A stretch of DNA of 64,000 nucleotides from Parietichytrium sp. I65-24A. Lineage: Eukaryota > Sar > Bigyra > Thraustochytrida > Thraustochytriidae. This document shows positions 15,406 through 34,769 of the stretch, in pieces (within the stretch, counting starts at the first letter, position 1; each line of letters starts with the position of its first letter). The notes beneath the pieces are model-generated. The model saw only the letters and a list, made by a program, of their open reading frames with translations. It was not told the DNA's origin and ran no database searches. The stretch lies in contig BLSF01000007.1 of the NCBI GenBank assembly GCA_012862575.1, positions 1 to 64,000 on the forward strand, read 5' to 3'. The translations under genes were made by a program, and so were the position numbers.

Positions 15406-17436
15406 ATGAGGGTCGAGTCGATGGAGATAAGCGGCGAGAAAGGCCAGGAGCATGAAGTTCTGCCGCTCAAAATTCGGCTGAGCTGGGCCGCGCCGCAGTT
15501 CTCGGTGCTCTCTGTGCACATGTTGCTCACTATCCATGCGACCATCTTTTACGACTATCTTGGCGCAAGCCTTGCATTCATCGCGTTTGGGACGGCGTTT
15601 AGTAGAAGTTGGGACGTGGTTTCGGACCCGCTGATGGGGTGGATAAGCGACTCCACGAGGTCTCGCTGGGGCAGGCGCGTTCCTTACATGCTGGTCGGCA
15701 TGTGGCTGTATGCTAGCAGTCTTCTGTTGGTGCTTGGCGCTGGAGTAATTCTGCCGGACAATGTGATTCAGTCCAGTGGGGATATTTGCGTAGGAAATGG
15801 GACGGACTACGTGGCTCAGGAGGACGAGTCCGACAGCAGGATTGTGTCCATCTGGTACTCGGTAACATTTGTGCTCTTCTACCTGAGTGACACCCTTTGC
15901 AACGTGCCATACAGCGCCCTCGGACCGGAAATTGCTCCAGACTACGACAATCGCTCCAAGTTGTACTTTAATCAAAACATATTTGGCATGACAGGCACCC
16001 TCTTCGGCGCTGTGGCCCCAGTCATTGCCGAGGCAGCAGGACTCACAAAAGTGCGAGCCTTCTTTGCCGTTGGACTCTTTTACGGTCTGTATTACATCAT
16101 GAGCGCTAGCAACCTTGCTGTTCACTGCAAAGAAAAGGTAAAGAAGGACGATCTTGCGAAGGCCATTCCCCTCGTGCCGAGCGTGAACCGGGCTTTTAGA
16201 AACCCCGCGTTTCGTATTCTTGTGACATCCTGGCTCATTGACGCAGTCGGCTGGTTTGCACTAGCCGCGCTGCTACCGTTCTACCTGAAATATGTTGTCA
16301 AGCCCGGCGACACGGAGGGTTTTGACTTTCTTGACAACGATACCTGGCTTGGAGTCGCTTTTGCGTCGTTCTTCATTTCCGCAATTCTAGCCATGCCCCT
16401 CTGGAAGCTTGTCGAAAAGAAAATCGGCATGTACCGTGCCTGGATCCTCTACAACATTTGTATGGGACTGTCAAACGCCCTTTTCATCTTTGTCGGCCGC
16501 GGCGATGTCGTCATTGGAATTGTCGTCACCATCCTGAACGGCATGCCACTTGGCGGAAAATACTTAAGTGACGCGACACTCGCCTCTTGCCTCACCGTAG
16601 ACGAGTTCTACACGGGAGAGAAGCGCGAAGCTCAGTTCACAATGTTTGCTAGCTTTGTGCCCAAGATCGTTTCCATCCCGTCAAATGCCCTACCGTTGGC
16701 TGCGATAGCTGCTGCGGGGTTTGTCGGAAGTAAAACAGAGTGCGTGGACGGAAGTCTGGTCGTCGTTAATCAAGACCAGCCACAAGTCGTGAAGACGCTT
16801 ATTGTTGCCTTCTTTGTTGGTCTTCCCGTCCTCGCCAACGCCGTGTCGATCATGGTGAAGATTCGCTTCCCATTGAAGAAGGCCGAGCAAAATTACGCGC
16901 TTGCAGAGGGCATTCGCCTTCACTCGATGGGCCTTCCGGCAGAAGATCCTATCTCTGGTCTCTTGATACCAAGTCATATAGGATTCACTGAAGAGGAGAA
17001 AAGGCTTGGTGTCCACCTGGATCATTTTTCTGCCTTGGAGCAGCTTCGCCTGGTTACGAACAATGGGGACGCGGCATTCTTGGTCAGAAGGGCCATGATC
17101 TCTCTCTTTGTCTGTTGCTGCATGCTTATACTGTGCATTGTGACCGTTGTTCTGACCTTCAATTTCCTGACGGAAACCAGTCTTTCTTGGATTCCATCGT
17201 TCGCACAAGTTTGTGTTGGACTCTTCTTGATGGGAACTGCATTTTCTCTCCTCAAGCTCAAGGCTGCACTGAAACTTAAAAAGGAGCCTGTTCCAGTCGA
17301 GCTCATCCTACGTTGGTCGCAAGCAAGCTTCACGAGCCATAAAATTTCGAGGAGACTTGAACAGATTATAGCAGCCAGAGAAGCTAGACCGGTGAGCATA
17401 TTGTCCCCCAGAGCAAGCAACGAGAAAAACCTGTAA
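15406..17436 (+). CDS. MFS transporter of the GPH/MFSD2 type (MFS_2)
   Basis: 676 residues from ATG 15406, with a second Met at residue 6. The loop 2-3 signature DPLMGWISDSTRSRWGRRVP, at about residues 75-95, is the hallmark of the glycoside-pentoside-hexuronide/MFSD2 branch. About 12 hydrophobic segments are visible, with a hydrophilic loop near residues 490-540. Animal MFSD2A moves lysophosphatidylcholine carrying DHA, while bacterial relatives move sugars with Na+. The substrate here is not readable. Convergent with the NRPS gene (313 bp between 3' ends), so a product-export role is only a weak possibility. Confidence 0.85.
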   Translation: MRVESMEISGEKGQEHEVLPLKIRLSWAAPQFSVLSVHMLLTIHATIFYDYLGASLAFIAFGTAFSRSWDVVSDPLMGWISDSTRSRWGRRVPYMLVGMWLYASSLLLVLGAGVILPDNVIQSSGDICVGNGTDYVAQEDESDSRIVSIWYSVTFVLFYLSDTLCNVPYSALGPEIAPDYDNRSKLYFNQNIFGMTGTLFGAVAPVIAEAAGLTKVRAFFAVGLFYGLYYIMSASNLAVHCKEKVKKDDLAKAIPLVPSVNRAFRNPAFRILVTSWLIDAVGWFALAALLPFYLKYVVKPGDTEGFDFLDNDTWLGVAFASFFISAILAMPLWKLVEKKIGMYRAWILYNICMGLSNALFIFVGRGDVVIGIVVTILNGMPLGGKYLSDATLASCLTVDEFYTGEKREAQFTMFASFVPKIVSIPSNALPLAAIAAAGFVGSKTECVDGSLVVVNQDQPQVVKTLIVAFFVGLPVLANAVSIMVKIRFPLKKAEQNYALAEGIRLHSMGLPAEDPISGLLIPSHIGFTEEEKRLGVHLDHFSALEQLRLVTNNGDAAFLVRRAMISLFVCCCMLILCIVTVVLTFNFLTETSLSWIPSFAQVCVGLFLMGTAFSLLKLKAALKLKKEPVPVELILRWSQASFTSHKISRRLEQIIAAREARPVSILSPRASNEKNL

Positions 17437-17749: not shown

Positions 17750-20700
17750 TTACTCGAACGTGAACAGCTCATTATCTTTCGGTGGCGGCGGGATGAATTC
17801 TAGCTGTATCATCCGCTCGAAATATACCTCGTTCATTGCATCATAACCCGGATACTCTCTATCGATCAAGTATGTGCATTCGAATTTGACTCGCACAGGG
17901 CTTTGCATGTGGGACACATCTGGAGCGAACATCGGCAGAAGAGGATAGAGGGCATTCATCCGAGAAGACGAGCGCGGAGAAGTCGACTGCATGTCCTCTA
18001 ATTGCTCATCATCAACCTCCTGGACAGGTGTGAAACCGGCAACAGTTGGATCTCGACGGCCCGAGACCCCGCCTCCGCGCGAGTGGGACCGAGAGTGCGT
18101 CGACGAAGAAGACACTGACCCCCTCTGACGGTGCAACCCACCCGACAGGCGCGGAGCCAAAGCGGCTCCCTGTCGCTCATTCACCGAGTTGATAGATCTT
18201 GGGCCACCTATAGTTATGGAGCTACTCGACTTGAATGAGGCAGACGAAGCGCCACCGCTGGATCCTCCTCTCAGAGACACCAGTGGTAAATTTGCGGGCG
18301 CACTGTCACGTTGTGGCGAGCAGCTTGACTCCCTAGACGGCGGAGAGATGATCGGAGTTATTCCAAATCCGGTTTCGAATACTTCCGCCTCAGAATGCCG
18401 TCTCGCTTTGCCCGACCCAACGCCGCTGGACGGCGCCGGTTCCTTGATACGGGTAGGCTGTTTGGCAAACTCGATCAGCTTTGCTCGCCACTCTGCGTAG
18501 TCCACAACGGGACACTTGTATCCGAAATCCGACACCCACTTGAAGTATTCCGGCAAGTAAATTGGCTCTGGGTGGCACATGTTGTACGCTCGCCCGAGGT
18601 GGCCATCCTTCTCAAAGCTCAAGCCTAGATTTAGGATCGATTCACAAACGAAATCTACAGGATTCATATCCATCACCCAATCGAGCTCAGGCGCCGCTTG
18701 CAGTTGCAAACAACCCTTCAAAAAGAGATACATAAAGTCACTAAAGTTGGCCATTCCATTCTCAGAGTGCCCAGTTATTCGCCCAGGGCGGAGAATAACA
18801 GCAGGCAGCCCTCTCCTCTGGCTTTCCTGCACAAGGTGCTCAGCGACCCACTTGGTCTGAGCGTAGCCTTCCATGCCAATAAGCGTCTGAAAGTCATCCA
18901 AAGCCTGGTCCTCGTGAAACAACACCTCCTGGCCTTTCTCCAGATCCACCGCCGAGGGGGCAAACACGGACAATGTCGAGATGTGAACTAGGACAGCAGG
19001 GTGGCCGGGCCGTGCGCATGCAAGTCGCAAGACTTCACGGGTCCCATCCACGTTTGCGCTCTTGAGTCGGCTATATGGAAACAAGGAATGAACGTATGCC
19101 CCACCGTGAAAGATTATATCTACGCGCTGGCCCAGGTCTAAGAAGGTTGACTTGGGGAGTCCCAGCAGCGGGAGCGACAAATCTCCGCACAGCACACACA
19201 ATCGTGGGCCCTGGCCACCAAAGGTGGGCGACAGAGTATTGCGGCCACCTTGTCCTCCGCCGTGAGAATTTTCGCTCACGGACGAGGAACCCGCTGCTGT
19301 CGGAGAAATTTTGTCCAGCTCTTCGAATAATATCATATTGTCGACCACATCGTCCAAAAGCTCCATCTTCGCTAAAGACTCCTTCAAGTGCGCCAATGCC
19401 GCTGCATCACTGCGGCCCCTCACCAAGCAGATGATCGTCGCATGCGGCCGCTTCTCCGCCAAAGCTTGCACGAGATGCCTAACTAGAAAACTTCCAAGAA
19501 ACCCCGTCCCTCCAGTTACGAGAGCCACTTGCCAGCTGTCTTCCCGGACTTGCCGCGAATCGTCCAATTTCTCCGGCAAAATGATATCATCGTCGAGTCT
19601 ACACTCTTCGTCGGGGTCAAACCCCAGCTCGTCCTTCCAATTGAGTTCAGCAATGCTCGACGCGCTGTTTGCCATCTGTGTGTTGCCCTTCCCGGCGTCT
19701 TGCTCGCTTCCCGGAACGACCCCATTGTCCACATCGCCAGGGGCGGGGTTTGGAGAAACGCGCCCAGAAGGCAACGCGTCTCCAGCGTTTGCCGGTTGCT
19801 GCTTGGAGACGATTGCGGCCGCCATTCCGGCTATTGAAGGATCTGCGAAAAACCTCCCAATGGAAAGATCAACGTTGAACGTGTCGCGGACCAGGGAGAG
19901 TAGCTGAGTGGCCGCAAGAGAGTGGCCACCAAGATCAAAAAAGTTGTCATGTATGCTAATGCTCTCCAGGCCCAGTGTGTCTTTCCAAAGACCGGCCAAA
20001 ATAATCTCCTCCGCCGTCCGTGGCGCGACCACGGCGCTCATTGCCTTCCCGCTCGTGTCTCGACTTTTTTCTGACGGCATGGGAAGAGCTTTGCGGTCCA
20101 CTTTGCCATTCGGCGTTAGTGGAAGTTGCTCTAGAAACACCCATGCAACTGGCACCATATATGCCGGGAGCTTGTCTTTGACCAAGCTTTGCAACTCGTG
20201 AATACGTTCCACTTCCGCTGCCTCTACCTCTTCCAGAGGATCACGCATCACTGCATATGCACAGAGCCGTTGCTGGCCTGGCTTGTCTTCGCGAACTAGC
20301 ACGCAAGCTTCCACGACTTGCGGATGCTGCTTGATGACCGACTCTATCTCCCCGAGCTCGACACGCATGCCGCGAATTTTCACCTGAAAATCGACACGAC
20401 CAATGAATTCAACATTACCGTCGCCTTTGAATCGCACTCGGTCTCCAGTTCGGTACATCTTCGTTCCCATTATCGTCTCATCAAAGCCTGCGCTTCGAAG
20501 GAAGGGCAGCAGCTTTTTCGGAATATCTACGAATTTGTCTGCAGTGAGGTCCGGGCGCTTGTGATATCCCCTTGCAAGCCCTAAACCCGCGATACACAAC
20601 TCTCCAGGAACTAGGATCGGAACTGGCTCCAGGAAGTCGTCCAATACAAGTGCAGCAAAATTAAAGAGTGGCTTTCCAATCGAAGGAGACACCACAGCGC

Positions 20701-23700
20701 CACTTCTTGCTTCAGCGTTCTCAGCGAGGCTGTTTACCACGAAATAAGTGCACATAATAGTACCCTCTGACGGGCCGTAGTGGTTGTCCAGCCGGAAGGG
20801 CACCTTGCGCAGGACATCAACCGGAACGTGAAGCTTGTCACCGCCGCCGTACAGTGTTCGGAGCGCCACTGGCCATTTATCGTTTTTGGATCGCAAAAAT
20901 ACCTCGAGAATTGGCGTCGGCATCAAAGTTACCGAAATTCGCTTGTTGTGAATCCAGTCTGCAAGTTGAGGGAGATTACTTCGGAGAGTATTGTCAACTA
21001 CGTGCACCGAAGCCCCAGAGCATAGAAAGGGCCAAACTTCCAGCCCAACGGGGTCGAACGCCGCGCCAACCAACTGCGACGCCCTGTCACGCGAAGTTAC
21101 ATTGTAACTCGAAATGTGCCATAGCGTGACATTCACCAAAGCTCTATGCTCGACAAGGACTCCCTTTGGGTTTCCCGTGCTTCCTGAGGTGTAGATCATG
21201 TACACCACGCTCCGTGACCCGTGCCACTGCTGATCATCTCGACCCCACGATGACGAGGATGGCGGAGCAAGATTTTCCACGGCTTCTTCCACGCCATACA
21301 TGCTAGCGACGCGGCGGGTTATCTTTTCCCACTGTCCATCGAGGGAAATAATGGATGGCATACGCAATGGGCCACGTTCCCCAGGCCCAACTGATCTGTC
21401 GGCAAGGTTATCGTCCTGCTTGCTCATGTCCAGGCTCGCTAGAAACTTCAGTGAGCTCTTGTCACAGAGGACAGCAGCCATGTCGGAGTCTTCAAAGACG
21501 TACATGAGGCGCTCACGAGGCCACTCAATGTCCATTGGAACATAAGCTCCGCCGGACTTTGCAACGGCAAGCATCCCAAGAATCATATTTGGAGAGCGCT
21601 CCACAAAAATGCCGACTTTGCATCCTGGCTCTACTCTGGCCTTCAGACGCAGGTAGCGAGCTAGAATATTTGCTCGCGAATTGAGCTCCAGGTACGACCA
21701 TGACTTGGAGTCCATTGAAACTGCGCACGCAAATGGGTTTTTGGCGGCCTGGTCCTCGAAAAGCTCGTGTATACACTTGTCCATGGGAACCTTTCTGAAC
21801 GTCTTATTCCACTCTGAGAGAATCAGGTTATGCTCAGCACTTGAGAGCAAACAAGTTCTGCAGAACAACTGTCCGGGATCAAGACTTCCTTGTATAAGAC
21901 TGAGAAAGTGACCCGCCATTCTCTCAATAGTTTCTCTTGTGAAAAGGGACTTTTTGTATTGGAATGACGCAGACAACTTTGTCACCGCTTCTGAGCTCCC
22001 TGATTTCTTTTCGGCCCCTTTACTGATGATTAGCTGAAGATCATACGGCGAGGCACGTTGCTCCAGCCCTACCTGTTTGTGACCTTGAAACTCGGACACG
22101 GAAAGTTTGGACCCAAGTTTCACCTTCTCTCCAACCTCAAGCCCAGCGAGAGAAGGAGCCTGGTCAGATGATGCTTGGTCAGAGGAGTCTTGAAAGAACG
22201 ATTGGTTCAAGGACAAGAGAACTTGAAAGATAGGGCTCGCATGCGACTGCCGGTAAGAAGATAGTCGCTCCACAAGAATCGCAAACGGAAGTTCTTGGTG
22301 TTCAAAGGCAGATAGAACCACCGATCGTGCCTGACGGAGTAGGCTCCGAAAGTGGTCTTCCTTGCTGACGTGCATTCGCAACACTACAACGTTCGTGATG
22401 TTTCCTACAGTCCGGTCGAGTTCAGGAATGGTGCGACACGCCATCGGGGTTCCGATCAAAATGTCCTCTTCGCCCGTGTACCGGTAAAGTAGTCCAGAGT
22501 AAAACGCTACCAAGGCCATGAACAATGTAGCGCGCTCCAACTTGATGATGCTTTGAAGGTGCTGCATTGCTTGTGGAGGAATCTCAAAACGGTACCACGC
22601 CCCATTTTCCTCTGGTTCTTTGTCAATGCGAACTCGCTCAAAGTCCGTCGGCAGCCCAAGAGCAGTAGTATGACCAGCAAGTTGACGCTGCCAGTAGTTC
22701 CACAGCCTAGCCCCAGCTGCGGACTGCATTTCCTCTTTCTGGAGCTTAGCAAATTGCGAAACCGTCAAGCTCTTGTGCTCCGGAGGGAGGTTTGAAGACA
22801 CACTTTGTCCGCTCGACAACGCGTCATAAACCATCCCGAGCTCTTGCAAAATAATGTCCAGCGACCACCCATCTAACGCGATATGATGAGCTGTCAAGAG
22901 GAACACGTAACTCTTGTCTTGGGCGGTGTATAGGCGGGCACGGAAAGGAGCCTCCGCCTCGAGATCCCACGGTTTGTGCAACTGCTTCTCTAGGGAGTCT
23001 GAGAGAGACTGGTGATCAGCTTCTGGCACGTCATAAAACTCATAATTCAAGCGATTCGGGGCGGATTTTGGAGGATCGTCCTTCGAGGGCGAGGATTCCT
23101 CTATCGTTTCTGGGACCCTTTGCGATGCTGCGCTCCTCAGCAACTTCCCCGCACTTTTGGTTGGTGTGGACAGCTCTCGATCGCCCCCCCAACGCTCGTT
23201 CTTGCTATTTAGATCCGCACCTCTTGCGTCAAGGGCGGGGTGCACAATCTGATAAGGGGTACCGTTTTCTTCCGCATAGATGGTTCGGAGAGATTCGTGT
23301 CTATCGACAAGAACCTGCAGAGCCTTTTTGAATATTTCGGGCGAAAAGTCTTCTGACTCCACGTTGCATGCGACATGGACCACAAAGTCAACTCTCTTTG
23401 GATTCATCTTTTGCAGAAACCAAAGTGACTGTTGGTTGTAGGACAGGACAGCTAATTGAGGCTTCCTTGAGCCCGGGCTGCTTTTTCCGTCTAGCCGATG
23501 ACGGAAGCGTATCGAAGACTCCACAACGGAGTTCGTTACAAGCCAGGAAGGCGAGTGTGCCAGGAGACTTAGGGGCGAGGTTGAGAGCGAATATCCACCC
23601 GAACTACTTGATGGTCCAGTAAGCTTCTCGCGGATCTTGCGTAGATTTGAATTGGACGCGACTGAAGCGCTCAAGATTGGAGTCGAAGGGTTGTCATGAT

Positions 23701-26700
23701 CCTGGGATGCGCCGGACTGGCGCCGCTTGAGCGTGCTCCGCTTGTCCTGTAACCACTCAGAGATGGCACTGTCGCGATAGCTTGACGATACCACAGAGTG
23801 AGCAGCAAATCGCACTCGGCTCCCATTACTTTCCGCATAGTTGGAAGTCATACTCTCTGGTGCAGCAGTGCCCTCCGACAAATTGTCAGCAACATCTTTG
23901 ACCTGGCTCGAGTCGGCGCGCCGAGAAGAAGACGACTTGAGCTGGTTTTCAACATATCTGGTGACTCCCCGGATCGTCGGAGTCTGCAAGAATTTGGAAA
24001 GCGGCATGTCCACCGACAGCTCATGCCTCACTTTAGACATAATTCTTGCTGCAGAGAGCGAGTGACCACCTTCCTCGAAGAAATCTTCGTCGGGCTTTAC
24101 ATTGGATTCGTCTCTGCCTAAGGCCGCGGCGAATATCGCGCGAATCGTTCGCATGGTTTTGGACATGTATTGGTGCCGTTCTTGTTTCGGCCCGCGATGG
24201 CGGCTTGGACCAACTCGAGCCTGCTCCTGTGCGCCAGAGCCCTGTGACGTCGGTCGCGAGGCATTTGCATCTTCAGGAGCCGGCAAATTTGTCCGATCAA
24301 TCTTGTGATTCGCTGTCAGCGGAAAGCTCTCCAACTGCACAAATGCGTTCGGAATCATGAAACTCGGTAGCTTTTCTTTCAAGAACGCCTTCACATTCGC
24401 GCTTGTCAGAACGTTTTTGGGGTCCTTGCAGATGAAGTAACCTACTAGCACTTTGTCCGCTAGCATGGAAGCTTGGCTTTGGGTTCGTGCGATGACTACA
24501 CACTCCTTTATCTCAGGGTGCTCGAGCACCGAGGACTCCACCGCTGTGAGCTCGATACGATTCCCACGAATTTTTACCTGCGTGTCCTTTCGGCCCAAGA
24601 AGTCCAACTCTCCGTCTTTAGTCCAGCGCACCAGATCCCCGGTACGGTACAAGCGGCCACCTGATAAGTCGCCAATGTGGGCAACCTCCAAAAACTTTTC
24701 TGCCGTGAGTTCCGGTTGGCGAAAGTACCCTTTCGCGAGCTGAATCCCACCCACAAAGAGCTCGCCGTAGATGCCAATCGGCATTGGCGTGAGGAACTCT
24801 GGGTCTAAGACATAACACTGCGTATTTGGGGCGGGCTTGCCAATAAGCGGTGGCGTGGTAAGTCCTTTCGGCACGAACGTCATGGATGAGTTGATGGTGT
24901 TTTCGGTTGGGCCATAGATATTTACGAGCTCATAAGATGCGTCGGAACGCGGACCAAAGTGTAACCTGTCTCCTCCGGTGTAGAGCAAGCGAAGATCTTT
25001 GAGATCTTTGCGAGGATTCGCCCGCTCCTCTTCAAGAACCATTTCACAAATTTGTGTTGTTAAGAATCCCATCGTGGCCTTCTTCTCCACGAACCAGGAT
25101 ATCAAGTGGTGTGGCACAACACTGATATTCGGATCTGTAATTGGAAGAATACAAGCGCCCACCACCAAGGTCGGCCACGTATCTGCCATCGAAGCGTCAA
25201 ACGCCAACCCGGCGCAGGCAAACACTCGGTCTTGAGGTGTCATTTGATAGTATGGGATATGCCAACTGATGTAGTTGACCAGCGAACGATGCTCCAACAG
25301 AACGCCCTTCGGTTTCCCGGTCGATCCAGAAGTGTAAATGGCATATGCAACCGTGTCGTTCGACTGCTGGGAGGAGCTATTCGCCGGCCTCGAGCTAGCC
25401 AGCGAAATTGCGTCTTCCCAATCTTTGTCGATCAAGACTCGCCGCCCCGAGAAAGAAGGTGGCACCTTGTCCGCAAGGCTCTCCTGCAAGATCATTGTCG
25501 GGCATTCCGCGTCCTCGATCATTACCTTCACCCTCTCGAGTGGGTATTTCGGGTCCATGGGCATTATTGTTCCCCCGGACTTGAGCACACCAAGCCAGGC
25601 CACAACAAGATCGATGCTGCGGTGGAGCAGGACAGGGACCAGGGACTCAAGCTTGACTCCCGTGAAGCGTAGAAAATTTGCGAGCCTGTTGGCGCGTTCG
25701 TTAAGTTCTTTGTATGTGAGCGTCTTGCCTTCAAACTCGACGCATATCCGCTCTGGATGCTCCGTGGCTTGTCGCTCGACAAGGTGGTGCACACACGCCG
25801 ATTTTACGTCTTCCGGGATTTCCTGACGTATGTCATTGAACGTTTGCGTGACTTTAAGCTGTTCGGATTGCGAGAGAAGACAAAGGTCAGAGAGTCGAAC
25901 CTTTTCCGGCATTGCGACACTCAACTCTTCGAGTATATTCACAAAATGTTCGCCGAGATGCTCGGCGAAGGCTGCAGAGAAAATGTCCGAGTTGTACTGT
26001 ACAGATCCGCAGACTTGATCGTCTTCCACGCACACCATTACGGTCAGATCGAACTGAGCGTGACGGTGAGGCGCAACAAGTGAGCGAAAGTTGTTTGGAT
26101 TTAGGTCTGGGTGCAGATCAAGCTTGACATCATCAAAGCCGAGCATCGCCTCTGCTAGCCCTGGGCGGTCCAAAAACGGTCGCTGCAAGACGTAAGCCAC
26201 ATTGAAGAGCGGGTTATCTGCTCGAGAAGGGCCAGAACCCCCGCCAGACGTGGAGGACTTCATTAGCTGCTCAACTAGGTAAGGGAAAGGAACAGCTTGA
26301 TTGTCCAGGCTGTTCAACACACTCATCGACACTCTGTGCAAGAGCTGGATCAGCGTTGGATTTCCAGACAAGTCGGCGCCAATAACTACCGGGTTTACGA
26401 AATAGCCAAACACTTGCTCCAGCTCATCAGAGGTTCGGCCTGCGGAGGGAACTCCCACGTGCACTTTGTTCGATCCTGTATAGGATCGCAGAAGAGTGCA
26501 AAACGACGTCAGCAAGAGAACATTCATTGTGAACCCTGTATTTTGCGCCAACGTGTGCAATAGACGTGTGCACTCCGCGCTCACCCGGAATAACCGCGAC
26601 CCTCCGCGATATGACATCTTCGCCGGCCGCGACCTTTCTATAGGCAGCTCCAAAGTCGGAGCAAATGAGGACAGCTGCGTTTTCCAGTGATCGACCATCT

Positions 26701-29700
26701 TGTGGCACCTTGACGACTGAACAAACTGTCTCTGACGCTTGATGTGGCGGCTGTAGGACTGGCTCTCCTCGATTGATGCGCCAGGACGTTCACTGCTTTC
26801 GTCAAAGTACGCTGAGAAGAGGCGGTCTAGAAGGAGCACCAGGGACCACAGATCAATGATTATGTGATGGACGACAAGAAGGAAGTACTGCTTTCCCTCC
26901 GAGTGAGCAAAGCGAGCCCTGAATAGTGGCCCCTTGGCAAAGTCGAACGCTCGATACGTCTCACGCTCCAACCAATCCTTCACATCATCTTGGGTGAAAG
27001 CAGCAGGGAAAACTTTGGAGGCGTCGAAGTCTACAGCTATATTGGAGAGAACGTGTCTTTCGACGACTCTGAAACTTTCCACGTCGGAGTCACCCTTGTT
27101 CTCTTTGGCACCTGGCTCTTTATAGACCGTCCGGAGAGCCTCATTAGATGCCACCACCCGTTGAAGCGCCTTGAGCATTCGCTCAGGACTTAGAAAGTCA
27201 CTCTTCTCTGTTACGACAAAGGAAAAGGGCACGTTATACGCTTGGCTGGCAAAAGTATCACTTTTTTGGCAAACTAGCCAAAGCGACTCCTCGTTGAAAG
27301 AAGCTTGCAATGGATCAACTGGTATCGAGCTGTCAAGGTCCGCCGCGTCAAGGCCCGAACTTGCCTGGCTGGCACCAGTTTCCCCGCCGATCACCACAGA
27401 CAAATCGAGAGTAGGGCCACCTGGCGATGCATTTTGGGCAATGATTACAGCCTGGGAGTATTTCTGAATGGTCTGGAACTTGTACAAGAGTGACAAGGGG
27501 AGGTCGGCCCCGACAAGTCGGCTCATTTGAGCAGTGATGCGTCCGGCAGACAAAGAATCTCCGCCGGCCTCGAAGAAGTTGGTTTCCTCGACGTCAATGG
27601 CGCTGGAGTCAACGCCAAGAACGTTGGACCAGATTGTTTTCATTTTCATCATCAGTGGAGCCGTCGCGTCTGCCTGGTCTACAGAGTTGGAGAGTTGTAA
27701 TTTGATATTCGACAGTGAAGAAGACCGCTCCTTTTGCTTTGGAGCAGACGAAACTGTAGACGGCGCGGGAAGCGCCGAGCGGTCTACTTTGTGGTTTGGC
27801 GTCAGAGGAAGGGTGTCCAGAAACACGAACGAGCTGGGAAGCATAAAGAGGGGAAGACGCTCTTTCACGTAGGCGCGTAGCTCCGTCGTGCAAGTCTCCT
27901 CATCTTTGCACCCATGAGGCCGCACAATATAAGCGACAAGCCTCTTCTGCCCGGGGGTGTCTTCGCGAGCGATGACGACGGCATCTCGAACAAGGTCGTG
28001 GTCAAGGAGAACAGATTCGATCGCAGTAAGCTCAACGCGATTTCCTCGAATTTTGACCTGAGTGTCACGGCGTCCTTGAAACTCTATTTCTCCATCCTCT
28101 AGCCATCGAACCAGGTCGCCGGTTTTGTACAGCTTTTCTCCTCCGAGTGTAAACGGGTTCGGAATAAATCGCTCCGCGCTTAGCTCGGGAAGCTTGAAGT
28201 ATCCTCGAGCTAGTTGAACTCCAGAAAGAAACAGCTCACCAAACACTCCCACTGGCACTGGTAGCAAGGTCTCCGGGTGGAGAACAAAGCATTCTGTATT
28301 CGGTACAGGGGAGCCAATTGTAGGGGGCGTCCGGAGCCCTTTGGGTACAACAGTCATGGTGGAGTTGATGGTGTTTTCTGTCGGGCCGTAGATGTTTACA
28401 AGCTGGTACGATGCTTCCTTATGGGAACCAAAGTGGAGACGGTCGCCCCCAGTATACAGAACACGTAGGTGATTCAGATTGTCTCTGGGAGCAGACGAGT
28501 CCTCTTCTAGAACCATTTCGCATATCTGTGTAGTGAGAAAACCCATCGTAGCTCGCTCTCGAGAAATCCAGTCTAAGAATCTCGCCGGCACGATGGTAGT
28601 ATCCGCGTCAATGATCGGCAAGATGCATGCTCCGACTGCCAAGGTTGGCCAGGTATCCGCCATTGCAGCATCGAACGCCAAGCCAGCACAGCTAAAGACC
28701 CGATCATCAGAGGACATTTCGTAGTATTTGATGTGCCAATGTATGTAGTTGACAATGCTTCGATGCTCCAGCATCACACCTTTGGGTTTTCCTGTGGATC
28801 CTGATGTGTATATGACATACGCCAAGCTACTAGGCTTCAACGAAACGCCTTGGACATCAGCAACGTGCGGCAGATTGGTACTTCCCAAGCTGATCATGCG
28901 CTCCCAATCTCGATCAACTAAAATCAAGCGGAGTTTGCGAGGAAAGTCTTTCTCCTGAAACAAGTGAGATAGAGAAGACTCGGTGATGATGACAGTAGCA
29001 TCAGCGTCGGCTACGGTGACTCTGACTCGTTCTGCTGGAAATTTAGGATCCATAGGCAGAATCGCCCCGCCGGATTTCAAGACACCCAGCCAAGAGATGG
29101 TTAGCATTGCGCTGCGGTTTAAGAGCACAGGAACGGGCGTCTCGGGTGAAACTCCGACTAGGAGCAAGAAATTGGCCAATTGATTGGCCTTCGAATCAAG
29201 CTCCCCGTACGTCAGAATCTCCCGTCCATTGCACAACGAGACTGCAGGGGCGTCAGGGGTCATTTTAGCTTGCTGTTGAACAAGCTCATGTATCAGCATG
29301 TCCCGCGTCGTTGGGGAGAAGATAGTTTTGGTTGCATTGAAGTGCTCCATAACAAGTTCTTCTTCCTCTCTCCGCATTATCGGAATGTCAGAAATTCTCG
29401 CAGCATGGCCAAGAACGCTAAAGGTGGGCTGCTTGATGAAGTAGCGGTAAGAGGATGGCACGAGATGAGCTAGAGACGAGCTTTCTTCTCCGCGCGTCTC
29501 TGCACCCGAGTTTGTGGGTGGATACACCCCCAAAATAGCTTGGAGAACACAGCGAAAGTGCATGGTCATTCGCTTCATGGTCGATGGCCTGAACAGCTTT
29601 CGGTTGTATTGGAATGCCACGCGAATGACCGGTGAGGTGACACCAATTAAGCGCAGGTCCTCTTCGCAAATCGAGTTGTGCAAAGGCACTGGAATTGGGA

Positions 29701-31078
29701 AGAGATTGATACCACCAATCACGATTGGTTTGGTCTGGTAAGGCGACCTCATAAGGTTCTCCTCGTCAATGGAAGGCTGAAATGAGATATCTGCCTCGGA
29801 CCGATTGCTCTCTAGCATCGACGCGGACACAGAACTAGCGTCTGGCCCAACACTAGAGCCCGAGAACTGTCTCGACGCAAAAGCAGGAAAAGCCGGGGGC
29901 TGAGCTTGCGCAGGCATCGGCTGCGTTTCCGCCGCGTCTAGCGTTTCCGACCGGATGTTTGTGGACGTTTGTGAAGAGAGCCCCCCTTTGGTGTCTTTGC
30001 GGAAAGTTGTGCAATGCCCAATTGAATCCAGAGCCATCGCTGGCTTGGTCAGTGACTCAAGACCGAGAATATGGCGAAGTAGGCGCGTGGTGATGAGAGG
30101 AAACGAATAGTCGTCCACAGTGTTCCCGTAGACCTCAAAAGCTGCCTGGTAAAGATCTGCGAGCCCGAGCTGGTCCTTGAGATCTGCGATGGATATATCC
30201 GGATGCGCCTCAGCATCTGAGAGCAAAGCGGAGACGCGGTCCAGGAACGTCTGTACTGAAGGATGGTCCGCACACTGAACGCGCAATGGGACCCAGCTTT
30301 CAAACTTGCCAATTAAATTCTTAATTTCAACGTGGTTTCCACGCCCCGAAGCGTGGCAGCCAACTATGACATCTGTTTTGTCTGTGTAACGCGCCAGCAA
30401 AATCAAGTACGCGGTGAGTAGAACGGTGCGTGTACTAACGTGGTTTTGTATGGCAAAGTGCCGGAGCTGATCCCCCAGCTCCTCGTCCAAGGGAATATCG
30501 CAGAGCCCAATTTCCTTCATTTCCCCCTGGGATTCACTTGATTGTCTCGAGGTGAATGCCACAGACTCCGTGGGCATCTCGAGAGTCGGTAAAGGTTTGG
30601 CTAGAACGCTTTGCCAAAAGGCAAGTTGCTCCGCGGGAAATTCCCCGCCCCCCTGCGAGTGCGACTTCCATAACTTATATTCATCATATTGCATCTCGAG
30701 GGGGGAGAGGGTGAAATCTATAGGCGCCTCGTATAAGAGCTTGATGTCCGAGATGAGCAGGCAGAGCGAGAGAGGGTCTATCAGGGTTCGGTCTGCCACG
30801 ATACCAAAGATATCTTTGGATCCTGCACAACGGATCAGTCGAATCACTACCGAGGGCCCAGCTTCCGAGAAAGAGCATAATTCAATTGTTTCGAGCACCA
30901 ACTCATCTTCCGTCTTGAGCTGGTCCACCTGATCTACTAACGCAAAGTCCACGCCGCTCCCATGATCTAGCAGCAGTGACTGCCTCTCTGCTGCCCTGTA
31001 GCAGCAGAGTTCCAGGTGCTCCACATCAAAGCTCGACGAGCTGCGGGCAAACAGCTGCGTCGTCGCCACGCGGTTCAT
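17750..31078 (-). CDS. Three-module non-ribosomal peptide synthetase with terminal reductase
   Basis: 4442 residues in one exon from ATG 31078; a GTG ten codons upstream is not used. Domain order: C0 (about 10-480) with the active-site motif degenerated to DRTLIDP at 96-102; A1 (about 596-1106); T1 with Ser1175 (GGDSL); C1 with HHIIIDL at 1404-1410; A2 (about 1761-2270); T2 with Ser2340 (GGHSL); a Ser-rich linker of about 150 residues; C2 with canonical HHIALDG at 2731-2737; A3 (about 3101-3668); T3 with Ser3720 (GGHSL); reductase (about 3845-4215) with VTGGTGFLG and an SDR-type Tyr4072-x3-Lys4076. All three A domains keep YTSGSTG and the C-terminal catalytic Lys (NHK or NGK). A reductase in place of a thioesterase releases the chain as an aldehyde or alcohol. 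A Ser-rich extension and a short ordered tail end the protein. The substrate is unknown. No introns; a transferred bacterial origin is possible but not shown. Confidence 0.93.
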   Translation of the reverse strand: MNRVATTQLFARSSSSFDVEHLELCCYRAAERQSLLLDHGSGVDFALVDQVDQLKTEDELVLETIELCSFSEAGPSVVIRLIRCAGSKDIFGIVADRTLIDPLSLCLLISDIKLLYEAPIDFTLSPLEMQYDEYKLWKSHSQGGGEFPAEQLAFWQSVLAKPLPTLEMPTESVAFTSRQSSESQGEMKEIGLCDIPLDEELGDQLRHFAIQNHVSTRTVLLTAYLILLARYTDKTDVIVGCHASGRGNHVEIKNLIGKFESWVPLRVQCADHPSVQTFLDRVSALLSDAEAHPDISIADLKDQLGLADLYQAAFEVYGNTVDDYSFPLITTRLLRHILGLESLTKPAMALDSIGHCTTFRKDTKGGLSSQTSTNIRSETLDAAETQPMPAQAQPPAFPAFASRQFSGSSVGPDASSVSASMLESNRSEADISFQPSIDEENLMRSPYQTKPIVIGGINLFPIPVPLHNSICEEDLRLIGVTSPVIRVAFQYNRKLFRPSTMKRMTMHFRCVLQAILGVYPPTNSGAETRGEESSSLAHLVPSSYRYFIKQPTFSVLGHAARISDIPIMRREEEELVMEHFNATKTIFSPTTRDMLIHELVQQQAKMTPDAPAVSLCNGREILTYGELDSKANQLANFLLLVGVSPETPVPVLLNRSAMLTISWLGVLKSGGAILPMDPKFPAERVRVTVADADATVIITESSLSHLFQEKDFPRKLRLILVDRDWERMISLGSTNLPHVADVQGVSLKPSSLAYVIYTSGSTGKPKGVMLEHRSIVNYIHWHIKYYEMSSDDRVFSCAGLAFDAAMADTWPTLAVGACILPIIDADTTIVPARFLDWISRERATMGFLTTQICEMVLEEDSSAPRDNLNHLRVLYTGGDRLHFGSHKEASYQLVNIYGPTENTINSTMTVVPKGLRTPPTIGSPVPNTECFVLHPETLLPVPVGVFGELFLSGVQLARGYFKLPELSAERFIPNPFTLGGEKLYKTGDLVRWLEDGEIEFQGRRDTQVKIRGNRVELTAIESVLLDHDLVRDAVVIAREDTPGQKRLVAYIVRPHGCKDEETCTTELRAYVKERLPLFMLPSSFVFLDTLPLTPNHKVDRSALPAPSTVSSAPKQKERSSSLSNIKLQLSNSVDQADATAPLMMKMKTIWSNVLGVDSSAIDVEETNFFEAGGDSLSAGRITAQMSRLVGADLPLSLLYKFQTIQKYSQAVIIAQNASPGGPTLDLSVVIGGETGASQASSGLDAADLDSSIPVDPLQASFNEESLWLVCQKSDTFASQAYNVPFSFVVTEKSDFLSPERMLKALQRVVASNEALRTVYKEPGAKENKGDSDVESFRVVERHVLSNIAVDFDASKVFPAAFTQDDVKDWLERETYRAFDFAKGPLFRARFAHSEGKQYFLLVVHHIIIDLWSLVLLLDRLFSAYFDESSERPGASIEESQSYSRHIKRQRQFVQSSRCHKMVDHWKTQLSSFAPTLELPIERSRPAKMSYRGGSRLFRVSAECTRLLHTLAQNTGFTMNVLLLTSFCTLLRSYTGSNKVHVGVPSAGRTSDELEQVFGYFVNPVVIGADLSGNPTLIQLLHRVSMSVLNSLDNQAVPFPYLVEQLMKSSTSGGGSGPSRADNPLFNVAYVLQRPFLDRPGLAEAMLGFDDVKLDLHPDLNPNNFRSLVAPHRHAQFDLTVMVCVEDDQVCGSVQYNSDIFSAAFAEHLGEHFVNILEELSVAMPEKVRLSDLCLLSQSEQLKVTQTFNDIRQEIPEDVKSACVHHLVERQATEHPERICVEFEGKTLTYKELNERANRLANFLRFTGVKLESLVPVLLHRSIDLVVAWLGVLKSGGTIMPMDPKYPLERVKVMIEDAECPTMILQESLADKVPPSFSGRRVLIDKDWEDAISLASSRPANSSSQQSNDTVAYAIYTSGSTGKPKGVLLEHRSLVNYISWHIPYYQMTPQDRVFACAGLAFDASMADTWPTLVVGACILPITDPNISVVPHHLISWFVEKKATMGFLTTQICEMVLEEERANPRKDLKDLRLLYTGGDRLHFGPRSDASYELVNIYGPTENTINSSMTFVPKGLTTPPLIGKPAPNTQCYVLDPEFLTPMPIGIYGELFVGGIQLAKGYFRQPELTAEKFLEVAHIGDLSGGRLYRTGDLVRWTKDGELDFLGRKDTQVKIRGNRIELTAVESSVLEHPEIKECVVIARTQSQASMLADKVLVGYFICKDPKNVLTSANVKAFLKEKLPSFMIPNAFVQLESFPLTANHKIDRTNLPAPEDANASRPTSQGSGAQEQARVGPSRHRGPKQERHQYMSKTMRTIRAIFAAALGRDESNVKPDEDFFEEGGHSLSAARIMSKVRHELSVDMPLSKFLQTPTIRGVTRYVENQLKSSSSRRADSSQVKDVADNLSEGTAAPESMTSNYAESNGSRVRFAAHSVVSSSYRDSAISEWLQDKRSTLKRRQSGASQDHDNPSTPILSASVASNSNLRKIREKLTGPSSSSGGYSLSTSPLSLLAHSPSWLVTNSVVESSIRFRHRLDGKSSPGSRKPQLAVLSYNQQSLWFLQKMNPKRVDFVVHVACNVESEDFSPEIFKKALQVLVDRHESLRTIYAEENGTPYQIVHPALDARGADLNSKNERWGGDRELSTPTKSAGKLLRSAASQRVPETIEESSPSKDDPPKSAPNRLNYEFYDVPEADHQSLSDSLEKQLHKPWDLEAEAPFRARLYTAQDKSYVFLLTAHHIALDGWSLDIILQELGMVYDALSSGQSVSSNLPPEHKSLTVSQFAKLQKEEMQSAAGARLWNYWQRQLAGHTTALGLPTDFERVRIDKEPEENGAWYRFEIPPQAMQHLQSIIKLERATLFMALVAFYSGLLYRYTGEEDILIGTPMACRTIPELDRTVGNITNVVVLRMHVSKEDHFRSLLRQARSVVLSAFEHQELPFAILVERLSSYRQSHASPIFQVLLSLNQSFFQDSSDQASSDQAPSLAGLEVGEKVKLGSKLSVSEFQGHKQVGLEQRASPYDLQLIISKGAEKKSGSSEAVTKLSASFQYKKSLFTRETIERMAGHFLSLIQGSLDPGQLFCRTCLLSSAEHNLILSEWNKTFRKVPMDKCIHELFEDQAAKNPFACAVSMDSKSWSYLELNSRANILARYLRLKARVEPGCKVGIFVERSPNMILGMLAVAKSGGAYVPMDIEWPRERLMYVFEDSDMAAVLCDKSSLKFLASLDMSKQDDNLADRSVGPGERGPLRMPSIISLDGQWEKITRRVASMYGVEEAVENLAPPSSSSWGRDDQQWHGSRSVVYMIYTSGSTGNPKGVLVEHRALVNVTLWHISSYNVTSRDRASQLVGAAFDPVGLEVWPFLCSGASVHVVDNTLRSNLPQLADWIHNKRISVTLMPTPILEVFLRSKNDKWPVALRTLYGGGDKLHVPVDVLRKVPFRLDNHYGPSEGTIMCTYFVVNSLAENAEARSGAVVSPSIGKPLFNFAALVLDDFLEPVPILVPGELCIAGLGLARGYHKRPDLTADKFVDIPKKLLPFLRSAGFDETIMGTKMYRTGDRVRFKGDGNVEFIGRVDFQVKIRGMRVELGEIESVIKQHPQVVEACVLVREDKPGQQRLCAYAVMRDPLEEVEAAEVERIHELQSLVKDKLPAYMVPVAWVFLEQLPLTPNGKVDRKALPMPSEKSRDTSGKAMSAVVAPRTAEEIILAGLWKDTLGLESISIHDNFFDLGGHSLAATQLLSLVRDTFNVDLSIGRFFADPSIAGMAAAIVSKQQPANAGDALPSGRVSPNPAPGDVDNGVVPGSEQDAGKGNTQMANSASSIAELNWKDELGFDPDEECRLDDDIILPEKLDDSRQVREDSWQVALVTGGTGFLGSFLVRHLVQALAEKRPHATIICLVRGRSDAAALAHLKESLAKMELLDDVVDNMILFEELDKISPTAAGSSSVSENSHGGGQGGRNTLSPTFGGQGPRLCVLCGDLSLPLLGLPKSTFLDLGQRVDIIFHGGAYVHSLFPYSRLKSANVDGTREVLRLACARPGHPAVLVHISTLSVFAPSAVDLEKGQEVLFHEDQALDDFQTLIGMEGYAQTKWVAEHLVQESQRRGLPAVILRPGRITGHSENGMANFSDFMYLFLKGCLQLQAAPELDWVMDMNPVDFVCESILNLGLSFEKDGHLGRAYNMCHPEPIYLPEYFKWVSDFGYKCPVVDYAEWRAKLIEFAKQPTRIKEPAPSSGVGSGKARRHSEAEVFETGFGITPIISPPSRESSCSPQRDSAPANLPLVSLRGGSSGGASSASFKSSSSITIGGPRSINSVNERQGAALAPRLSGGLHRQRGSVSSSSTHSRSHSRGGGVSGRRDPTVAGFTPVQEVDDEQLEDMQSTSPRSSSRMNALYPLLPMFAPDVSHMQSPVRVKFECTYLIDREYPGYDAMNEVYFERMIQLEFIPPPPKDNELFTFE

Positions 31079-33551
31079 GGTACGCCCCGCGCTCCCCGCG
31101 CGCCACACAACCTCCTGCCCTCCTCCCTGTCTTTAGTCTCTCTTTCCCGAGTCCAAGTCTACCGCGAGCTCCCACAATATGTATGTGCTCGAGTACACGG
31201 ACCGGTACTCTGTATCTGACTACGTATCCAAACTCTTTGCGAACTTTTCACCTTTCTCCACTTTCGTCCAACTCTTCTTTTCGATTCGACCCCGCGTCTC
31301 TTCCTGAGGACTCCAACGCTCTGAGACTCCCGCGGACCTGGCCCCGACTCTATTTGTCGGCTTGCTTGGCGGCTCTGGCAATAACCTCCGAAGGTCGCAC
31401 GGCACCTATCGGCACTCAGTACTCACAGTGCCAGTGGTACTGTACTCACAGTCGTCAGTAACACACGCAGCATGAGGATTGTGTGAGCGTCTCAGGATAT
31501 TTCACATGTAGGTCAACTTCGAAAAACAGCTAGCCGCGTCCTGATGGTCCTGACTGTCCTGACTGTCCTGAAGGTCCTGATGGCCCTGATCCCTGGCCGT
31601 AAGCAAATGTTTGTGTGATTGTGACCTTGTGACATCTTGTAACCTTGTGATACCTTGTGGCGTTTATGGTCTTATGGCCTCGCGGCTTTGGGGCTCAGCT
31701 GAGTCTGTCAGAACGATAGTCAGCTTCTTCCGTTCAAAGTTTGCCTCATACGGAGGCTGTGTGTTGAGCGCGCGTAGTTGCACGCTGCTTCGGATGCTTC
31801 GGATGCTTTGGAACTTGAATTTGATTGACTGGTTGGTGTGTCGGTAAATTGTCGCTTTGTCAATTTATCAATTTGTTGATTTTGGATGATTTTGGATTCA
31901 TTTGTCCCTCGGTCTACTGCTTCTAGCCTCCTCCAAAAAGATCATTGTGCATTGTTCATTCTTCCTTTCTTTCTCCTTAGCTTTTTTTTTCTCCGATTCC
32001 ACTTTTCGACTATTTGTGCTACACTACTGCACTTCTGCAACGGGAGCACTACTACGCAACTATGCTACACCTTGTCTGCACGAAAAAGATAACATGATAA
32101 TAAGTGCGAAGATTGTGGACGATGTGAAAGCGAAGTTGCAAAGCGAAAGTGAACTGACAGTGAACAGACTTTGTAAAATGAAATGAATGACACGACTACT
32201 TCCTTGCAGTATCAGAAAAGAAGGAAAAGGCGTCCACTGTACTCGAATACTGCGTGGTTGAAGAACCTTGACAGGGCGTTTCTCTGGAGTATGAGCAGGT
32301 GGACGGCAGCATGCGTCCAATTCATGCAGTTCAACTTGAGAAGAAATGTTGCAATACACTCTGGAGCTTGATTTCTCGACGATGAGAAGGGCGGAGCATG
32401 GTCGCTTCAGTCCAATGATGGCTGGGAAGACAGGGAACGAGTTCTCACGTCACTTACCGGTATCTCTAAATCAGTTCCTCACATGTTGTTTCCAGAGTCA
32501 CAGCCCATGTATGGGCTCCGTTACTCTACGCACTCTTCATGTTGCGAAACGGAGTCTGCTTTGGTTTTCGCATCAGGGTATAATGTAGTTTTCGAGGTTT
32601 GCCTTCTTGTTGGTACTTTCAGGTTGCACTAAACCGCCAGCCCAGAATACAAGACACTCAGTTCATGATCGTGGGTCCAACTCTGGTCACTTCTGTCTGC
32701 GTCGGACGTGCTACTGGTAGGCTCAATCACTTTCATCCACTCAGCTTGGGAACCTCCGGGGCTCCAACTCTTCCCAATCTTCCCAGGTCACCATCATTTC
32801 TAATCTTATAAATCTATTTTGATCAATCAATCAAGAGAGGTTGAAAAGTTCCAGACCCTTCTCGAGACTTTAGCCCAGTCTTGTACGAGAACCCTCTGCT
32901 TCGACAGACAGATCTAGCAGACCCAGGGTCCTACGGATCGGGCGAAATGAATGGTGTGAGGGTCCTAGTACTCGGTACCCCTTACAAAATCTCCTGGCTG
33001 CGGCTCCTACTCGGCCAACCTTCGAGAAGTAGGAGTGCCACGGAGGAGGCGAAGCGTTCCGTTGTTCTCCGGGGCGGCTGCTACGCTAGGTGCTATGCGA
33101 AACGAGTAAATTGTAGTAAATTGCTGGTTGTCAGATGTTGACAGATCAATAATCGAGGGCAAGTCAAGTCCAGAGCACGAAAGGAGAAAGCTTTCAAGCT
33201 CAAATTGCACAATTTGTGTTGAGTCGCAGCCGGGTGTGCTGGGTTTACGCGGCGTGCGTAGCGTCATTAGTCCGCGCGATTGGGCGGTCGGGACTCTCTT
33301 TGGTTGCGCGAAGCCCGCGCTTTTGTTCGGAGGGTTGAGTCGACAGACAGACAGTCAGACAGACTGACTCACTCACGCTTGGAAGACAGACAGATAGACA
33401 GATAGACTGATAGACAGACAGACAGTCATTCACTCAGACGGCTATACATCGGAAAAGCTCGAATTGCAGGTGCAGGGCAACAGAACATCTTCCTTTGTGA
33501 AGGTTTGAAGAAAGCGGTGGTCGAAAGGTGTGGACCGTGTGTGTGCCAATA
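31079..33551. other. Long divergent intergenic region (NRPS / DnaJ)
   Basis: A 2.5 kb region between divergent starts. At 31110-31150 the plus strand is pyrimidine-rich, so purine-rich for the NRPS. At 33337-33425 there is a GACA/GATA repeat on the plus strand facing DnaJ. A ggtcctgatggtcctgactg-like tandem array lies at 31530-31592. Small open frames here have no recognisable composition or motif, and no further gene is supported. Confidence 0.6.
33337..33425 (+). repeat. (GACA/GATA)n repeat upstream of DnaJ
   Basis: Blocks of gacagacagacagtcagaca and gatagacagatagactgata lie in tandem, on the coding strand of the downstream DnaJ gene about 130 bp before its ATG. Confidence 0.75.
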
Positions 33552-34769
33552 ATGCAGAGGTTGTGCTCCGGGTGCGTGCTGCGCAGCGCGAAGAGGGCTA
33601 CGTTTGGAGCGACGAAAACCGAACTTGGGAGAATTGGACAGCCGTGGGGATCGAATGGATGGTCTTATTCCAGCTCGCGGGCCTTGAGCTCTCACAGAGA
33701 CTATTATGATCTTCTTGGAGTTGACCGGAACGTGGATGCGAAAACACTCAAGAAGAAGTACAGAGAGCTCGCGAAAAAGTACCACCCGGACTCCAACAAG
33801 GAGTCCGACGCAACGAAGAAGTTTCAGGAGATCAACCATGCGTATGACGTGCTCTCAGACCCGGAGAAGCGCCAAGCGTACGACAATTTTGGTCCGGACT
33901 TTGAGCAAGCCGGGGGCGCGGGAATGAATGCACAGGGTTTTGAAGACATTTTCAGCCATTTTGCTGGATTTGGCGGCGGTTTTGGAGGCGCCGGAGGATT
34001 CCGCAACGCCGGCGGCGCGATGCGCAATGCGGGCGAGGACGCTCATGCTGCTGTACATTTGTCATTCATGGAGGCAGTGAATGGATGTAGCAAGACAGTG
34101 ACGTACCAAGTGGACGCGGGATGTTCCACCTGCGGCGGAACCGGGGTCAAGGCTGGTGAGAAGAAGAACACAACTCAATGCAAGGCATGCAATGGTAAAG
34201 GTGCCAGGATGGAGTCCGTCGGAGGTATGTTCCACGTCCGGGCTCAATGCGAAGCTTGCAATGGCACTGGGTCAACCATTGTGAATAAGTGCCCGTCTTG
34301 CAGAGGGTCTGGACTGGAGAAGAAGCTTGAGACAATATCTGTGCAAATCCCTGCTGGAGTTGATTCCGGAATGACCCTTTCTCAAAAAGGTGCTGGAAAC
34401 GCGGGCCTGCAGAACGGCAGGCGAGGGGATCTCTTTGTCCAAATTTCCGTGATGCCTGACAAGTATTTTAAACGCAACGGAAACAACGTTCACACAGATC
34501 TGAGCGTTTCCCTGGCTCAAGCGGTCTTGGGAGACAAGCTCCCTGTTCGCACCCTCGATGGCGACGTGGATCTTACAGTACCCGCAGGTGTTCGTCATGG
34601 AGAAGTCCGTAGGCTTCGCGGCAAGGGAATTCCTGATCTGTCGCGCATGTCACTTCGGGGAGACCATTTCATTACATTTAATGTGGAGTTCCCGAAATCC
34701 TTGACGGATCGCCAGAAAGAGATCATCAAAGAATTTGACGAAGAAGAGAAGAAGAAGAAGAAGGCTTAG
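33552..34769 (+). CDS. Type I DnaJ (Hsp40) co-chaperone, probably mitochondrial
   Basis: 405 residues from ATG 33552; the frame opens 24 bp upstream at a GTG. The first about 45 residues are Arg/Ser/Ala-rich without acidic clusters (MQRLCSGCVLRSAKRATFG), fitting a mitochondrial presequence. The J domain starts near residue 48 and has HPD at 78-80, then a Gly/Phe-rich stretch (about 120-160). The zinc finger (191-254) has four CxxCxGxG-like repeats (CSTCGGTG, CKACNGKG, CEACNGTG, CPSCRGSG), followed by the C-terminal substrate-binding domains. This is the MDJ1/TID1 layout: it stimulates mitochondrial Hsp70 ATPase and holds unfolded clients. The tail is Lys/Glu-rich. Confidence 0.93.
   Translation: MQRLCSGCVLRSAKRATFGATKTELGRIGQPWGSNGWSYSSSRALSSHRDYYDLLGVDRNVDAKTLKKKYRELAKKYHPDSNKESDATKKFQEINHAYDVLSDPEKRQAYDNFGPDFEQAGGAGMNAQGFEDIFSHFAGFGGGFGGAGGFRNAGGAMRNAGEDAHAAVHLSFMEAVNGCSKTVTYQVDAGCSTCGGTGVKAGEKKNTTQCKACNGKGARMESVGGMFHVRAQCEACNGTGSTIVNKCPSCRGSGLEKKLETISVQIPAGVDSGMTLSQKGAGNAGLQNGRRGDLFVQISVMPDKYFKRNGNNVHTDLSVSLAQAVLGDKLPVRTLDGDVDLTVPAGVRHGEVRRLRGKGIPDLSRMSLRGDHFITFNVEFPKSLTDRQKEIIKEFDEEEKKKKKA

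Follow-up and report, generated by a model that had tools for sequence, protein, structure and literature searches.

The locus analysed here poses a double question: What would a protist make with a giant peptide synthetase of bacterial type, and is the gene its own? Throughout, the window is the whole stretch of 64,000 nucleotides that was analysed, and the gene in question is its frame at 17750-31078. This frame runs on the minus strand from an ATG at 31078 to a TAA ending at 17750, comprises 4442 codons for a protein of 491 kDa, and is preceded by an in-frame stop 5' of the ATG, 18 codons apart. An earlier note on this DNA described a single unbroken frame of that length, which I confirm, adding the strand that it did not give. 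Across 40 dinucleotide shuffles of the window no ATG frame exceeded 294 codons, and the frame is therefore non-random. The gene had also been called intronless. Reading the frame requires no intron, but this is a statement about genomic sequence, and the low-complexity inserts could in principle hold in-frame introns.

Pfam identifies three AMP-binding, three AMP-binding_C and three PP-binding matches, four condensation stretches (C3 being matched in two) and NAD_binding_4. Combined with NCBIfam, this gives three adenylation (A), three carrier (T) and three condensation-type (C) domains and one terminal thioester reductase (R; Table 1). C-A-T modules with active-site motifs therefore recur on a single chain, as in a multimodular non-ribosomal peptide synthetase (NRPS), and the A-domain motifs that I searched for are present in the A domains. 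Domain calls, the check that the earlier note proposed, thus returned a complete set, and the relatives are bacterial-type. Its triple C-A-T repeat holds insofar as Pfam calls three modules; what it overlooked is the degenerate state of the first C domain. On the evidence of the sequence, the frame is very probably a bacterial-type synthetase encoded by a nuclear protist gene, with three loading modules and reductive release.

Table 1. Features of the NRPS gene, in the order of the protein; positions are those of the window.
Feature	Positions	Strand	Basis or remark
NRPS gene, (C)-A-T-C-A-T-C-A-T-R, 10 domains counting C1	17750..31078	minus	4442 codons, 491 kDa
C1, degenerate N-terminal condensation-like domain, residues 40-560, internal low-complexity stretch	29399..30961	minus	Pfam, model fold
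C1 site of the HHxxxDG motif, reads DRTLIDP, without catalytic His	30773..30793	minus	
A1 adenylation domain, pocket code DAAFYGIIN	27743..29365	minus	Pfam, alignment
T1 carrier domain, GGDSL	27449..27640	minus	motif, Pfam
C2 condensation domain, HHIIIDL, catalytic His kept, Leu in place of Gly	25859..27250	minus	motif, Pfam
A2 adenylation domain, pocket code DAAFYGIIN, 54% identical to A1	24257..25870	minus	Pfam, alignment
T2 carrier domain, GGHSL	23951..24148	minus	motif, Pfam
Ser-rich linker T2-C3, about 170 residues	23438..23950	minus	translation, domain bounds
C3 condensation domain, HHIALDG, low-complexity insert	21839..23437	minus	motif, Pfam
A3 adenylation domain, pocket code DPLLYGHIM	20054..21841	minus	Pfam, alignment
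T3 carrier domain, GGHSL	19811..19999	minus	motif, Pfam
R, terminal thioester-reductase domain, TGGTGFLG and YAQTK	17753..19531	minus	Pfam, NCBIfam, motifs, PDB, model
Shorter disordered insert in R, about residues 3927-3952	19223..19300	minus	model
Disordered Ser-rich insert in the R C-terminal subdomain, about residues 4210-4388, about 180 residues	17915..18451	minus	model

What the enzyme loads is best approached through its A domains. A1 and A2 (54% identical; A1/A3 38%, A2/A3 35%) are sisters, with support of 1.0 in a FastTree of 261 domains and 100 in an IQ-TREE of 84. Since these sisters also share one pocket code, a product of the form X-X-Y is expected. Neither DAAFYGIIN nor DPLLYGHIM is matched at more than five of nine positions by any of 273 bacterial A domains in pairwise alignment, and a first comparison, with 261 bacterial A-domain stretches from overlapping loci (some counted twice), gave no match at more than five of ten positions. 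The codes were retaken by pairwise alignment because column 278 was unstable in the first alignment. The same extraction method recovered DFWNIGMVHK, which I take to be the threonine code, 16 times. A literature search for the two codes found no printed occurrence. None of A1, A2 and A3 carries DAWFLGNVVK or a close variant, and five to seven of nine positions differ from leucine codes, so that the specificity of the A domains may have shifted.

The trees nevertheless place them with leucine-type domains. Four were built, with 261 domains (258 bacterial; FastTree), 84 (IQ-TREE), 93 (FastTree) and 32 (IQ-TREE), after dropping A stretches that span fewer than 400 profile positions (350 in one earlier set). 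In all four, A1-A3 fall with bacterial domains that mostly read DAWFLGNVV or DAWFLGHVV (support 0.985, 93, 1.0 and 100, respectively). The clade has 9 tips in the 84-domain IQ-TREE (93) and 18 tips both in the FastTree of 93 (1.0) and in the IQ-TREE of 32 (ultrafast bootstrap 100), where A1-A3 are nested among leucine-code domains: 14 of the 15 bacterial tips read DAWFLG[NH]VV and one DVWFFAHVI. In passages of two papers, DAWFLGNVVK is a leucine pocket (PMC7524897) and one of the most frequent codes for Leu/Ile/Val, mentioned where leucine seems to be meant (PMC12283262). From DAWFLGNVV I infer that DAWFLGHVV, which is absent from the passages of both papers, is a leucine code as well. Descent of the A domains from a bacterial leucine-type ancestor is well supported by these sequence comparisons; that their present substrates may still be leucine or another aliphatic is a guess, which I would put somewhat below an even bet.

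Around this clade the picture is less steady. The next clade carries codes such as DAFWLGGTF and DALFFGVTF, presumably of Val/Ile type (0.926 in the 261-domain FastTree; 99 in the 84-domain IQ-TREE), and once Acidobacteriota and Myxococcota sequences are added, the adjoining clades are either different or weakly supported. What surrounds the leucine-code clade is thus unstable between trees. A3 itself joins either A1/A2 (0.695 in the FastTree of 93) or bacterial domains (97 in the 84-domain and 24 in the 32-domain IQ-TREE). For each of A1, A2 and A3 the best single-A-domain match in the PDB is McyB (8hlk), which presumably loads leucine, and the summed score of LgrA, with its two A domains, lies above that of McyB. 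Stand-alone A-T frames of 630-681 codons with the code DAWFLGNVV also occur in Acidobacteriota and Verrucomicrobiota (loci L003, L009, L010 and L037).

How would the product leave the enzyme? The terminal SDR-type reductase reported earlier is borne out by the NAD_binding_4 match and by TIGR01746 (thioester reductase), which scores 252 bits against a cut-off of 213. The chain ends in a thioester reductase with GxxGxxG and YxxxK motifs, the arrangement of reductive release. In the structure model most core blocks of R reach a pLDDT of 80-96; the low overall mean of 67.8 is due to the inserts, and because confident structure resumes past the second of these, the C-terminal part of R appears complete. 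Both sequence and fold single out the MxaA R domain as the best PDB match of R, and the second-best NCBIfam model is TIGR03443 (Lys2), at 195 bits versus 182 for MxcG, an order that is reversed in both bacterial R domains scanned alongside. The product of MxaA is an alcohol, and Lys2 is aldehyde-forming. R domains carry out a two-electron reduction to the aldehyde, which reduction to the alcohol can follow, according to passages of two papers (PMC7586950, PMC12783407). For the window enzyme, judging from the sequence of R, release as an alcohol would have about an even chance and release as an aldehyde a little less than that.

Put together, these parts suggest the following course. A1 and A2 would load the identical amino acid onto T1 and T2, C2 would condense the two residues, and C3 would append the residue loaded by A3. 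R, with NAD(P)H, would then reduce the T3 thioester and so set free X-X-Y, a linear tripeptide whose C terminus is an aldehyde or, after another reduction step, an alcohol. I infer the order of these reactions, the hydrophobic (leucine-like) substrates, the aldehyde or alcohol and a role as a small molecule from the domains; the product is probably a hydrophobic tripeptide aldehyde or alcohol. The earlier note had already proposed a tripeptide of one or the other kind, which is what the architecture leads one to expect. It is still a prediction, and the note had overlooked the identity of the A1 and A2 codes from which X-X-Y follows.

A product that is not linear, the aldehyde cyclising or passing to a partner enzyme (to an imine, a pyrazinone-like compound or further amination), would fit the statement that peptide aldehydes released by R domains are often intermediates (in passages of PMC7586950). 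I consider it unlikely, since no obvious partner gene is found among 20 neighbouring frames, though partners need not be clustered. Moreover, pyrazinone formation is known for dipeptides, and a three-residue ring is strained.

Turning from the release of the linear tripeptide to its N terminus, the question is whether C1 still works. C1 aligns to PF00668 only at positions 122-340 of 456, about half of the profile, the start of which is unmatched. The pair Asp96-Arg97 of C1 stands in the place of a His-His that at least 90% of 25 aligned C domains possess, whereas the motif Asp is kept at 101. In its predicted structure C1 resembles a C domain in fold and contains one disordered stretch, some 100 residues long (mean pLDDT 66.7). 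The fold and the retained Asp would suit a C1 that still acts as a starter domain and caps the first residue, for example with an acyl group, to yield an N-acylated tripeptide aldehyde or alcohol. With both motif His lost and the first part of the profile unmatched, such a role is quite improbable, and I found no convincing upstream exon that could supply the missing part (C-domain profile against 102 six-frame pieces of 31079-33552; best E 0.67). The most plausible view of C1 is that it is a vestige and probably inactive, and for this reason the N terminus of the product is predicted to be uncapped by the NRPS. Thus, the gene predicts that A1 and A2 accept one amino acid, that C1 is dispensable and that release is reductive.

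The other two condensation domains retain their catalytic motif. The Leu that follows HHxxxD in C2 is rare: it occurs in 2 of the 239 HHxxxD-bearing C-type domains (C2 and C3 counted), that is, in C2 and in one of the other 238, while HHxxxD itself is absent from 7 of 246. C-like stretches shorter than 330 residues were dropped before these counts. In the C-domain tree, C2 and C3 pair weakly (0.671) inside a set of 153 tips, 86 of which are labelled LCL, 47 N-terminal, 18 other, 1 E and 1 DCL; with only 10 DCL and 3 E domains labelled, any subtype assigned to C2 and C3 would be tentative. The unusual C2 motif, the degenerate C1 and A codes without a close match among the codes compared might be taken to mean that the NRPS is decaying or repurposed and that the peptide is no longer made. 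I regard this as highly improbable: 13.3 kb are still open, the A, T, C2, C3 and R motifs are intact, and a similar layout in two other protists, known from the passages cited below, suggests maintenance.

Where did the synthetase come from? The best match of A1 is 41% identical among the best 80 of 577 confirmed candidates from a GTDB-220 scan with an A-domain alignment, 45% in 199 Acidobacteriota genomes and 48% in 146 Myxococcota genomes (43-47% over longer alignments; blastp). On plasmids it is 36-40% among the 25 matches listed of 2767 records; one record outside those 25 falls in the 60-80% identity band and is probably a short piece. Best identities of R are 48% in 244 cyanobacterial, 44% in 193 Myxococcota and 40% in 249 Pseudomonadota genomes, the phyla being those of the seed loci. 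These phylum searches sampled 146-249 genomes per phylum and, in most genomes, scored at most 7-9 candidates. R finds its best matches in stand-alone proteins of cyanobacteria, at 42-48% among the twelve best. These reductase frames (loci L085-L096), of 508-566 codons, are reminiscent of HglB/HetM. In the R tree the window domain sits on a long branch next to three Pseudomonadota R domains and has no near relative. An IMG/VR scan with the A1 and A2 alignment gave 11 pattern matches and no confirmed relative, and a genome scan with whole-protein patterns, which are poorly conserved, likewise gave no confirmed relative. With the nearest sampled bacterial A domains 43-48% identical, any transfer must be old. 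The gene is bacterial in type and distant from every sampled bacterium, which is consistent with an old transfer. A and R would point to different donor phyla, the best A matches being in Myxococcota and the best R matches cyanobacterial.

The setting of the gene is eukaryotic. Pfam returns a match at E 0.001 for 17 of the 20 neighbouring frames, including a myosin with IQ motifs, ankyrin repeats with a sub-threshold FYVE, a PH-ankyrin protein, TANGO2, GINS Sld5, tesmin/CXC and a PQ-loop protein. The myosin motor with its IQ motifs and the ankyrin frame with the sub-threshold FYVE follow one another at 51612-58732 and are possibly one spliced gene, although candidate introns joining them show no clear consensus. 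At 647-2387, a WS/DGAT-like acyltransferase gene has WS_DGAT_cat followed by WS_DGAT_C in another frame, and a consensus GTAAGT donor at 1781 marks a candidate intron that joins the two; its exact extent is not fixed because 39 GT-AG pairs keep the frame open. An MFS_2-type transporter (15406-17436) converges on the 3' end of the NRPS gene with a gap of 313 bases, and the minus strand carries a DDE_3-type transposase of 585 codons at roughly 5 kb from that end (10773-12530). Neither a PPTase nor an MbtH gene turned up in the 20 neighbouring frames that were scanned (3 of these lack any Pfam match), and ARAGORN found no tRNA.

Codon use agrees with this setting. The NRPS frame correlates at r = 0.970 with a pool of 18 neighbouring frames that excludes the transposase, compared with 0.568-0.932 for the 19 other frames, all of which are shorter, and 0.830-0.883 for NRPS pieces of 550 codons; the measure is coarse, since the NRPS in wrong frames still reaches 0.649-0.905. 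Bacterial contamination or misassembly, which bacterial-type domains and a frame open without an intron might suggest and the first of which the earlier note had named as a finding that would overturn its reading, is very unlikely in view of this codon use (even with wrong frames at up to 0.905), the eukaryotic flanking genes, one of them split over two frames with a GTAAGT donor between, the long Ser-rich inserts of the NRPS, and the fact that no bacterial A domain exceeds 48% in the genome samples (for GTDB-220, among the matches listed), with 1 of 2767 plasmid records, outside the 25 matches listed, in the 60-80% band.

Among known systems, the bacterial ones resemble the window enzyme in parts. 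The R domain of MxaA, from myxalamid synthesis (4u7w/4w4t), is 30-31% identical to the window R in structural alignment; MxaA is a PKS-NRPS module, and the two disordered inserts belong to the window R. Lys2, the L-aminoadipate reductase, is a single A-T-R enzyme, whereas the window enzyme has three modules and scores 966 bits with TIGR03443 over 7 stretches, below the cut-off of 1030. The nearest A relatives in the samples are the leucine-code domains (DAWFLGNVV/DAWFLGHVV) of Myxococcota, Acidobacteriota, Verrucomicrobiota and Gemmatimonadota, of which the best from Myxococcota are 45-48% identical to those of the window (43-47% over longer alignments). A Nitrosomonas metagenome-assembled genome (L067:1874-16225) shares C, A and T stretches that end in R on one frame but is bacterial and has four modules, an N-terminal TubC docking domain and 4784 codons.

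The closest likeness in layout is found among protists. The earlier note knew of no described product for such an enzyme in this kind of protist. The enzyme type itself has been described in protists: a 2015 survey of 32 algal genomes found NRPSs in 7 species and, in the passages cited here, gives as the largest that of Bigelowiella natans, with 490 kDa, 10 domains and 3 C, and an equal arrangement in Aureococcus anophagefferens, with 460 kDa and 3 C (PMC4661987). The abbreviations in a figure legend of the survey include a reducing domain, and function and products are said to be unknown in almost all cases (PMC4661987). Passages of a second paper mention, for B. natans, a three-module NRPS with an apparent epimerase and a tentative cysteine call as well as a two-module NRPS with a reductive terminus, and six NRPSs in a Euglena transcriptome (PMC7073580). 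On their face, the statements on epimerase and cysteine do not fit the window gene, for which no epimerisation domain was called; its R part does match the NAD-dependent 'Epimerase' model of Pfam. In thraustochytrids antiSMASH has been run, and the passages of that paper name no such enzyme in the text (PMC6050695). Literature on thraustochytrids, labyrinthulomycetes, stramenopiles and Aurantiochytrium, mostly at the level of titles and abstracts, yielded no product for such an enzyme; protist NRPS genes are known, and the passages cited here give no product for one.

The three-module layout is therefore not new for protists, as far as these passages go, and the window gene is a further example of it. 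Three C-A-T modules and one more domain make ten, from which the tenth domain of the B. natans and A. anophagefferens enzymes would be a reductase. What they share with the window enzyme, by their published description and not by comparison of sequences, is approximate mass (490 and 460 versus 491 kDa), 10 domains, 3 C and a place among protist nuclear genes. The near-equal mass might even hint that the window comes from B. natans, which seems unlikely given that the B. natans genome is intron-rich and that many window frames are long and uninterrupted. It is tempting, though a long shot, to see in them a single family of reductive NRPSs with three modules, obtained in the distant past from a bacterial lineage of leucine type, kept in a chlorarachniophyte, a pelagophyte and the window organism, and making uncapped hydrophobic X-X-Y (Leu-Leu-X type) aldehydes or alcohols by way of pocket codes not found in print. 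Peptide aldehydes and alcohols of the Leu-Leu-X type are a protease-inhibitor pharmacophore that, to my knowledge, is not known from protists. If the window gene does have a common origin with its counterparts in B. natans and A. anophagefferens, a single product would account for the family across distant eukaryotes.
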